Shown here one piece after another: positions 39,121 to 58,479 of a stretch of DNA of 64,000 nucleotides. Position 1 is the first letter of the stretch. Every line of letters begins with the position of its first letter. The notes under the pieces were generated by a model, which searched no databases, was not told the origin of the DNA, and saw nothing but the letters and a program-made list of their open reading frames with translations. Source of the stretch: an uncultured Bacteroidota bacterium (GTDB lineage Bacteria > Bacteroidota > Bacteroidia > Flavobacteriales > Flavobacteriaceae); assembly GCA_902557655.1 (NCBI GenBank), contig CACEAZ010000006.1, forward strand, positions 1 through 64,000. The letters run 5' to 3'. The translations under genes and the position numbers were made by a program.

Positions 39121-39131
39121 AACCCGCTTTT
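39109..39131. terminator. Bidirectional terminator between rsmD and rnpB
   Basis: AAAAGCGGGT, a 3-nt AAA loop and ACCCGCTTTT form a perfect 10-bp stem. On the minus strand it follows the RNase P RNA 3' end within about 3 nt and is continued by further T residues, so it is a good intrinsic terminator for rnpB. On the plus strand it includes the last codons and the TAA of rsmD and ends in TTTT. One hairpin thus serves both convergent transcripts. Confidence 0.85.
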
Positions 39132-39133
39132 AA

Positions 39134-39418
39134 GTGAATCTATAAGCCGAATTCTGTACTCATTAAGAGTTCTTGTCATTTATCTTGATATATGATTGCT
39201 CATATATTCTAGCTGCCTACCCTCCAACATTGAACGTACAATTCTCAAAAGCTGGTTTACATGGCATTTCACCACACAGAGTTTACCCGATTTCACTACA
39301 GCATTACCTGTACATTCTTTCTGTTGCACTTTTCCTAACCTTTCGGCCGATGGCTGTTAGCCACTGTGTTGTACTATGGTGTTCGGACTTTCCTCTATTA
39401 ATAGCGACAAGACGATTC
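39134..39418 (-). ncRNA. rnpB: RNase P RNA (bacterial type A, compact)
   Basis: The minus strand contains the universally conserved RNase P elements. The 5' CR-I/P4 strand is GAGGAAAGTCCGAACACC, then AGTGCAACAGAAAG, GGGTAAACTC, and the 3' CR-V/P4 strand ACAGAATTCGGCTTATAG, followed by a short closing tail. This is the catalytic RNA that removes 5' leaders from tRNA precursors. The span of about 285 nt is short compared with about 377 nt in E. coli, so some peripheral helices look reduced. The 5' end is set from the promoter and is good to a few bases. ORF-track entry 39173-39424 is its antisense artefact. Confidence 0.93.
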
Positions 39419-39424
39419 AATTAG

Positions 39425-55229: not shown

Positions 55230-56135
55230 ATGAACTGGAAAGATTCAATTAATGATTTTAAAGATTATTTAAGAATCGAAAGAGGTTTAAGCAACAACTC
55301 TGTTTTAAGTTATGAAAATGATTTAAAAAAGTTAAGTACTTTTTTAAATAGTAAAGGAGAAGAAATAAAACCTGTTGACGTAAATTCAGATTTAATTAAA
55401 GAATTTATATACAATGTTTCAAAAGAAATAAAATCTAATTCTCAATCTAGAGTAATATCCGGTATTAGAAGTTTTTTTGACTATCTATTATTTGAAGGAT
55501 TAATTGAATCAAATCCTGTAATCAATATTGAGTCCCCAAAATTGAGCAGAAAATTACCAAGTACACTTTCAGAAAATGAGATAAATATCTTAATTAAAAA
55601 CATTGATAAAAATAAAAATGAATCTGAAAGAAATATTGCTATTATTGAAACATTATATGGTTGTGGTTTGAGAGTTAGCGAACTAATTGGATTGAAAATT
55701 TCAGATTTGTTTTTTGACGAAGATTTTATAAAAGTAACTGGTAAAGGAAACAAACAAAGATTGGTGCCTGTAAGTCCTGTAAATAAGATCTATATCAACA
55801 ATTATCTTAATAATTCAAGAAAAAAAATAAAAATTGATTCGTTATTTTCCGATATTTTATTTTTAAACCGAAGAGGTAAGTCTTTAACACGTGCTATGAT
55901 TTTTACAATTATTAAGGATCTTGCTAAAATTTCAGGAATTAAAAAAAATATTTCACCTCATACCTTTAGGCATTCATTTGCAACACATTTACTTGAAAAC
56001 GGAGCAGATTTAAAAACAATTCAACAATTATTGGGTCATGAAAGTATTACAACAACTGAAATATACATGCACCTGGATAACAAAGCATTGATAAAAGTAA
56101 TGAGTAAATTTCATCCAAGATCTAAAACTACTTAG
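55230..56135 (+). CDS. xerD: Tyrosine recombinase XerD/XerC-type
   Basis: This 301-residue recombinase has the SAM-like core-binding domain (about 1-90). The catalytic domain contains the Arg in [10 protein letters not shown] (about 151), the Lys in [31 protein letters not shown], and the nucleophile Tyr in [17 protein letters not shown]. All R-K-H-R-H/W-Y residues are in place. It resolves chromosome dimers at dif with FtsK. It is a single-copy core gene rather than a mobile-element integrase. The 3' end overlaps the convergent rny gene by 8 bp. Confidence 0.94.
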
Positions 56136-57699
56136 CAATATTTACTGATCTTGTTTCCCTTATTACAGTAACTTTTACTTGGCCTGGGTAAGTCATATCA
56201 GTTTGAATCTTCTGAGAAATCTTAAATGACAATTCTGATGACTGATTATCATTTACTTTATCACTCTCTACCATCACTCTAAGTTCTCTTCCGGCCTGTA
56301 TTGCGTAAGCTTTTTCAACACCATCAAATTCCAATGCAATTTCCTCTAGATTTTTTAATCTCTCTATATATGAATCTAAAACCTGTCTTCTTGCGCCAGG
56401 TCTAGCTCCTGACATTGCATCACAAACCTGAACAATTGGTGATATCAAACAGTTCATTTCAATTTCATCATGATGTGCGCCAATTGCATTACAAACATCA
56501 GGGGTCTCTCCAAATTTTTCGGCCCATTGCATTCCTAAAATAGCATGAGGAGTCTCAATATCTTTTTCAATACTTGGGACTTTACCTATATCATGAAGTA
56601 GACCTGCTCTTTTAGCTGATTTAGGATCTATACCCATCTCAGAAGACATTATTGCACATAGTTTAGCAACCTCTTTAGAATGTTGTAATAAATTTTGACC
56701 ATAGGAAGATCTGTATTTCATTCTTCCCACATATTTAATTAATTCCGGGTGTAATCGGTTTATACCGAGATCAATAACTGTTCTTTTACCAACATCAATA
56801 ATTTCTTGATCAATCTCTTTTTTTGTTTTTTTAACAACTTCTTCGATTCTTGCAGGATGAATTCTTCCATCTTTTACTAATTTATATAAAGACATTCTTG
56901 CAATTTCTCTTCTAATAGAATCAAAACAGGAAAGAATAATTGCTTCTGGGGTATCATCAACAATAATTTCTACTCCAGTGGCTGCTTCTAATGCTCTAAT
57001 ATTTCTTCCTTCCCTTCCAATTATTCTTCCTTTTAAATCATCCGATTCAATATTAAAAACTGAAACCGTATTGTCGATTGCTTCTTCTGCCCCAATTCTT
57101 TGAATTGTATTTAAGATAATTTTTTTAGCATCTTGTTTAACAGATAATTCAGCTTCTTCCATTTTCTCCTTTGCATATAATAGGGCATCGTTTTCTGCAT
57201 CTTTTTTTAATGATTCTAAAATACTTTCCTTTGCTTCTGACTCGGTTAAGCCAGAGATAACTTCAAGTTGCTTTATTTGCTTTTTTCTAACTATTTCCAA
57301 CTCATCCTCTTTTTTATTCAGAGCAGATATTTTAGTATCAAGGTTTTTTGACTTTTGCTCTAGTTCAGAATTTAAAAGCTCCTGTTTATTAAGTACGGTT
57401 TCAATCTTTGATTCTTTTAAAGAAATCTCTCTTTCAACTATCTTAATTTTATCTTCTCTTGAAAAGATGATTTTTTCATGTTCAGATTTTAATTCTAAAA
57501 ATTTTTCCTTTGCTTGAATAATCTTGTTCTTTTTGACACTCTCTCCTTTTTCATTAGCATCATCAATAATTCGTTGAGCATCTTTTTTTGCTTTGTTAAT
57601 TAGCCCTAAAGATTTGTTTTTGTTAAGTAATTTTAAAAATGCCAAACCCAGCACAAAACCTATTAGTAATGAAATAATCACATTTGTTGTTATATCCAT
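56128..57699 (-). CDS. rny: Ribonuclease Y
   Basis: The track start at 57729 is a TTG with an odd leader; the ATG at 57699 begins the usual membrane anchor ([25 protein letters not shown]), giving 523 residues. A long coiled coil (about 30-200) follows, then a KH domain ([28 protein letters not shown]), and an HD nuclease domain ([20 protein letters not shown]). It initiates mRNA decay at the membrane. The 198 bp upstream hold the candidate 6S RNA. Confidence 0.96.
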
Positions 57700-57743
57700 A
57701 TTAAAATTTATTAAATAAAAAACCCACAAAAGTCATTTTATTT

Positions 57744-57853
57744 AAACTCCATTTTAACAGGTTTAGGGCTACAAGACTGATCAAAAATCTGAGTAAATCA
57801 GCACGATTTAACAATCTAAACTCACCCTTCTTAATTGATTAGCGTTGAGTTTA
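57744..57853 (-). ncRNA. ssrS: Candidate 6S RNA (6S-Flavo-like)
   Basis: The gap between zapA and rny can form a 6S-like rod on the minus strand. The closing stem TAAACTC/GAGTTTA joins the two ends. A bulged central bubble follows, then an inner stem GTTTAG/CTAAAC, and an apical stem (CTGAT/ATCAG or CTGA/TCAG). The span of about 110 nt and the position directly downstream of zapA match known 6S RNA (ssrS) contexts and the 6S-Flavo motif described for flavobacteria. 6S RNA binds RNA polymerase holoenzyme and is regulated by growth phase. The stems are short and AT-rich, so chance pairing is possible; the exact ends are uncertain. Confidence 0.5.
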
Positions 57854-57897
57854 CAAAAAAAACTAATGTAGGCAGTTTATTAAACTACAATATAAAA

Positions 57898-58185
57898 CTA
57901 GTCAGTTTGATCAAAAGATTTAATTAATTCAGAAATTTTAACTTCCACATCATTTAAAATATTTTTTTCGTCTAAACTTTCTTGTTTTTTACTAGATGCT
58001 ATTTGCAATGCACACATAGCCAATGCATCTTGTTTGTCCTGAACAGAATAATTCTGTTCAAATTTTTTAATCAAATTATTTATTTGTTGAGCTGCCAGCC
58101 TTAAACCTTCTTCTTGTGAAGGGCTTATTGTCAAAGGATAAACCCTATTAGCAACAGAAAGTTTAATTTTTAACTTATTGCTCAT
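57898..58185 (-). CDS. zapA: Cell division protein ZapA
   Basis: This 95-residue protein has the compact ZapA fold pattern: KIKLSVANRVYPLTISPSQEEGLRLAAQQINNLIKKFEQ, then a helical region with DALAMCALQIASSK. ZapA cross-links FtsZ filaments at the division ring. It lies 3 bp after a short coiled-coil gene and is followed by the candidate 6S RNA. Cytosolic, no signal peptide. Confidence 0.92.
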   Translation of the reverse strand: MSNKLKIKLSVANRVYPLTISPSQEEGLRLAAQQINNLIKKFEQNYSVQDKQDALAMCALQIASSKKQESLDEKNILNDVEVKISELIKSFDQTD

Positions 58186-58188
58186 AAA

Positions 58189-58479
58189 TTAGTCTGATAA
58201 TTGAGAAATGCATAAATCTATCTCTTTAATTAATAGATTTATCTCATTTCTTGTCTCATTAATATTATTTTTACTGCCCGAGATAGTGTTAGCTACTTTC
58301 AGTGCTTTAAACCTTTCATCTAGTAGTTTAAAATTGTTCACGGCGTCATCTTTTTCATCGGATAATATTACATTTTGAGCTCTTAACTTATCATTCATAT
58401 TTCTTAGGTTTGATATTTCTAAGATATTTTCTTTGATTTTGTTTTCTAAATCCGCTAAAAGAGCATTAATTTTATCCAT
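58189..58479 (-). CDS. Short coiled-coil protein upstream of zapA
   Basis: This 96-residue protein is almost entirely helical. A heptad-rich coiled coil (INALLADLENKIKENILEISNLRNMNDKLRAQ, about 4-65) leads into a second short helix. There is no signal or membrane segment. No named domain was recognised. Location directly before zapA suggests a partner in the division ring, comparable to ZapB, a small coiled-coil protein in gammaproteobacteria, but there is no sequence proof of homology. It is the first gene of the zapA transcript, with a TAAATTTG box near its start. Confidence 0.85.
   Translation of the reverse strand: MDKINALLADLENKIKENILEISNLRNMNDKLRAQNVILSDEKDDAVNNFKLLDERFKALKVANTISGSKNNINETRNEINLLIKEIDLCISQLSD

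Follow-up and report, generated by a model that had tools for sequence, protein, structure and literature searches.

The gap between zapA and rny in the window (the whole 64,000-nt stretch of DNA analysed here) very probably encodes, on the minus strand, a 6S-type RNA of the 6S-Flavo family from an uncultured marine flavobacterium, folded as a rod of about 155 nt; we put the probability of this reading at roughly 0.93. A search of the whole window against Rfam 15 matched RF01685 (6S-Flavo) above its gathering threshold (E 3.9e-17; score and coordinates in Table 1), with an alignment spanning model positions 1-108 of 108, and no other Rfam family reached its threshold at this locus. RF00013, the canonical 6S RNA, had no match in the window at gathering and none in the corresponding genome at E 0.001, and RF01693 (Bacteroidales-1) scored 18.7 bits against a gathering value of 60, so that the RNA is not a member of that family. 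The assembly holds a single 6S-Flavo copy. The RNA is therefore a new member of a known family, and the addition made here is a fuller structure, with boundaries, than the Rfam model provides. Elsewhere in the window, a class A RNase P RNA lies on the minus strand at 39127-39423 (191 bits).

The description of 6S-Flavo RNA dates from 2010 (Weinberg et al., PMC2864571). In Flavobacterium psychrophilum, a 6S RNA was detected and reported to be transcribed (PMC9723704), and a 6S RNA together with product RNAs has been reported for Bacteroides thetaiotaomicron (PMC7366714). The literature searched yielded no direct biochemical proof for 6S-Flavo, including polymerase binding and product RNAs. The identity of the RNA, its structure and boundaries, its conservation and its synteny are shown here. 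An initial annotation, made from the letters of the window, had placed a 6S-Flavo-like RNA between zapA and rny, naming no strand, and had suggested a covariance-model search and a comparison of relatives as checks. The search is positive, covariation among relatives is abundant, and together with the family-wide conservation of the locus they bear out this identity. Several elements that it described are present on the minus strand, which also carries zapA and rny: a gap without coding sequence following zapA, the large bubble and the apical hairpin.

The secondary structure was evaluated on an alignment of 85 sequences (A1) built without any structure information. Across helices P1-P5, 96.7% of the cells are paired, against at most 47% when the strands are slid, and two-sided compensatory changes occur at 31 of 38 pairs; no shuffle reached either value, where the shuffle control can be inflated by kinship among the sequences and the slid control retains that kinship. 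RNAalifold recovers the same helices. From the outside inward, the rod consists of P1 with its U-tract, the closing helix P2, a large central bubble, P3, P4 and the apical hairpin (Table 1), i.e., the large-bubble rod with flanking helices that is a feature of the 6S class, here backed by covariation. The 12-bp terminal helix P1 has 97.8% standard pairs and two-sided changes at 11 of 12 pairs, for example from A-U to G-C in 22 sequences and from C-G to U-A in 16, while the window copy carries two U-U mismatches near its middle. P2, which contains the closing stem already noted in the initial annotation, is paired in 95.4% of the cells with two-sided changes at 6 of 12 pairs.

Table 1. Features of the 6S-Flavo locus, in window coordinates.
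Feature	Position	Strand	Basis or remark
6S-Flavo RNA gene, proposed full extent (~155-160 nt; 5' end approximate)	57717..57876	-	full-length model and fold
Core matched by Rfam RF01685 (6S-Flavo)	57744..57850	-	103.4 bits, gathering 85
Terminal helix P1, 5' strand GCCUACAUUAGU	57862..57873	-	missing from Rfam structure
Terminal helix P1, 3' strand ACUUUUGUGGGU	57722..57733	-	pairs with 57873-57862
Closing helix P2, 5' strand UAAACUC	57847..57853	-	covariation; closing stem of initial annotation
Closing helix P2, 3' strand GAGUUUA	57743..57749	-	covariation
Central bubble, 5' strand (expected product-RNA template)	57829..57846	-	analogy with 6S RNA
UAAACCUG in bubble 3' strand	57758..57765	-	weak TAnnTTTG resemblance; complement of GGAGUUUA
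Helix P3, 5' strand AGGGU	57824..57828	-	two-sided changes at 5/5 pairs
Helix P3, 3' strand GCCCU	57765..57769	-	covariation
Helix P4, 5' strand AGAUU	57813..57817	-	two-sided changes at 5/5 pairs
Helix P4, 3' strand AGUCU	57774..57778	-	covariation
Apical hairpin CUGA/UCAG	57789..57801	-	folding and covariation analyses
U-tract immediately 3' of P1; its first U forms the closing G-U pair of P1	57717..57722	-	T-run in relatives
zapA, upstream neighbour	57898..58185	-	Pfam PF05164, E 9.7e-18
rny (RNase Y), downstream neighbour	56128..57699	-	Pfam PF12072, HD and KH domains

Judged from the alignments, the RNA is about 155 nt long (about 57876-57717) and thus longer than both the Rfam model and the span of about 110 nt (57744-57853) first assigned to it; the latter was too short, as the covarying terminal helix and the T-tract lie outside. 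A full-length covariance model (R1) matches 57705-57876 on the minus strand with 144.6 bits. For the full-length RNA, the folding energy is -37.6 kcal/mol (z -2.70, with 2 of 200 shuffles as good), whereas the shorter span alone (116 nt) has a z of -1.20 and does not fold significantly better than shuffles. Beyond the Rfam model, nearly all relatives carry, upstream, a strand resembling GCCUACAUURGU and, downstream, one resembling ACYRRUGUAGGC that is followed by a T-tract. The trinucleotide ACU at 57874-57876, just before the terminal helix, is near-invariant in relatives (A 100%, C 94%, U 99%) though unpaired, and may mark the transcript start. We rejected TACATTAG as a promoter -7 box: its letters covary with the 3' end of the RNA (TAC/GUA, TGC/GCA, TAU/AUA) and hence belong to the RNA.

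A run of at least five T directly follows the P1 3' strand in 114 of 118 loci. Since this strand runs straight into the T-tract, the end helix of the RNA, together with the U-tract, is probably its intrinsic terminator. The P1 duplex has a mean of -17.9 kcal/mol (-13.4 in the window); the most stable local fold within the final 45 nt has -5.6 kcal/mol, and a control with shuffled strands -4.5. Intrinsic termination, if it occurs, would most likely use P1, the long-range helix closing the rod, as its stem.

Of 151 genomes in the family, 148 carry the RNA, with one match each; these include all 126 near-complete ones, and none of the 14 control genomes has it. Across the phylum, beyond the family itself, RF01685 reaches three sister-family genomes and one marginal case; RF01693, also a 6S-type family, gives weak matches at this locus in that sister family and in one member of the family. 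Among named relatives, the marine single-cell genome AG-313-I08 is nearest, with rny 98% identical and an identical 6S core sequence. Among 118 aligned loci, zapA always adjoins the RNA, and rny lies downstream on the same strand in nearly all.

Several observations concern the surroundings and possible relatives of this locus. Directly upstream of zapA (58189-58479, minus strand), a 96-residue coiled-coil-looking protein has no Pfam match and could by its position be a ZapB-like partner. Relatives possess a 13-nt box, GTTCTTTAAAATA, 23-28 nt before GCCUAC, which is degenerate in the window (around 57886-57899). The box matches at 11 or more of 13 positions in 82 of 115 loci, against 0.4% of shuffles, and is unlike TAnnTTTG; it may be the promoter of the 6S RNA or a processing site. 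We rejected it as a general promoter element, since in two relatives each genome contains the exact string only 2-3 times, a frequency similar to that of the reversed control. In another family of the class (f8), loci L182-L185 (at about 1600-1750) give weak full-length R1 matches with E of 1e-4 to 1e-6. At the equivalent position they have CUCAAAACUUGUC, or a sequence close to it, as a common block; neither zapA nor rny was detected within about 1.5 kb. These candidates are possibly an undescribed 6S variant at another locus, and since the block is common to such distant candidates, the motif may be old.

We also have to consider that the conserved element could be a structured part of the zapA-rny transcript, such as an rny leader or a site for autoregulation by RNase Y, and not a 6S RNA acting freely in trans. 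The layout is indeed compact, with medians of 27 nt from the zapA stop to the RNA and 27 nt between the end of the RNA and the long reading frame that comes next, and the RNA is co-oriented with rny in nearly all genomes. We nevertheless consider this very unlikely. The RNA ends in a helix and T-tract ahead of rny, and its rod-and-bubble anatomy and Rfam match are those of 6S. Furthermore, five small flavobacterial genomes (G056, G068, G096, G053, G066; 83-90% complete) retain the RNA beside zapA although no RNase Y gene is detectable anywhere in them. In the congener G056 (L060, 1600-2600), the 6S RNA is immediately followed by a tyrosine recombinase that in the window lies beyond rny, an arrangement that resembles a clean loss of rny.

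Still less probable is the fold originally drawn for this gap, a 110-nt rod with an inner stem GUUUAG/CUAAAC. The two strands are perfectly complementary in the window and in some relatives, but only 66.7% of the cells pair and covariation does not exceed that of shuffles; moreover, this stem crosses and excludes P3, in which all five pairs show two-sided changes. We have discarded it, and P3 (AGGGU/GCCCU) takes its place. A chance complementarity within AT-rich sequence that serves no RNA function would agree with the insignificant fold of the shorter span, and is refuted by the covariance-model match, the near-universal conservation and the compensatory changes, which leave it a negligible probability.

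6S RNAs use the 5' strand of the bubble as the template for their product RNA. By homology, the rod described here would imitate an open promoter and occupy the RNA polymerase holoenzyme with the housekeeping sigma factor, and we infer that synthesis of a short product RNA would release the sequestered enzyme. In the bubble 5' strand, the AAC of ACUCAAC is invariant in all 85 sequences. Analogy with E. coli and B. subtilis suggests the invariant C at 57844 as the start of the product RNA; the polymerase would probably copy the 5' bubble strand from this C through ACUC. The product RNA would begin with G opposite this C and run through P2, with the predicted start GUUGAGUUUA (the complement of UAAACUCAAC). 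Its synthesis would open P2 and free GGAGUUUA, which may then snap into a hairpin with UAAACYU of the 3' bubble strand, whereupon the polymerase would be let go. Complementarity of UAAACYU and GGAGUUUA amounts to 88.1% and is best in register, with no covariation beyond shuffles. The predicted probability of this hairpin in the window rises from 0.03 to 0.88 with the template strand blocked (family mean 0.24). An alternative hairpin on the 5' side, ACUCA/UGAGU, pairs in 82.9% of the cells; its columns are nearly invariant, a Flavobacterium-like group breaks the pairing, and the rearrangement likewise shows no covariation beyond shuffles.

The conservation of the bubble 3' strand allows a further interpretation. 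In its UAAACYUG motif, an A and a U are conserved at two positions in 84 and 85 of the 85 sequences, respectively. The -10-like region of E. coli 6S lies in the 3' strand of the central bubble (PMC8876501), a place that the 3' bubble strand would occupy here, and the -7 promoter box of Bacteroidota reads TAnnTTTG (PMC9723704). UAAACYUG lies in the expected strand at a spacing plausible for a -7 box, with C at position 5 in 81 of 85 sequences. Every relative has a best agreement of 4-5 of 6 between the 3' bubble strand and TAnnTTTG; as 82% of the shuffled versions of that strand also score at least 4, this resemblance is not significant. Promoter mimicry, to which the initial annotation had drawn attention, is not demonstrated by the sequence. 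We regard it as rather unlikely that the invariant A and U represent the -7 box in RNA form, such that the 6S RNA follows the unusual promoter code of the phylum, with the terminal helix serving as an intrinsic terminator as well. A conserved 3'-bubble hairpin, with release of the E. coli type, competes with promoter-box mimicry in explaining UAAACYUG.

That a streamlined marine flavobacterium keeps a 6S RNA is settled. The 6S-Flavo structure is now fuller and testable, comprising P1, P2 and a probable terminator, while the public model stops short of both closing helices. The correct full-length RNA is needed for testing whether 6S RNA imitates the unusual TAnnTTTG promoters in Bacteroidota.

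Comparison with known systems places the RNA among the 6S RNAs. With canonical 6S/SsrS (RF00013) it shares the rod, the central bubble and the adjacency to zapA, as in beta- and gamma-proteobacteria (PMC7641849), whereas its downstream neighbour is rny instead of ygfA/fau. According to cited work, the E. coli ssrS transcript is terminated by Rho and processed; for the window RNA an intrinsic terminator is predicted. RF01693, labelled "6S-Bacteroidales RNA suggested", likewise is a rod with an ACUC/GAGU closing pairing, and the two ends of its consensus, AGCCGC...GUGCGGCUUU, can pair into a similar terminal helix with a U-tract. The window RNA has the same helices P3-P5 and the same conserved ACUCAAC and GGAGUUU as RF01685, but differs from the Rfam structure, whose two ends are unpaired and which stops short of the limits of the RNA, by the addition of P2, P1 and the U-tract.
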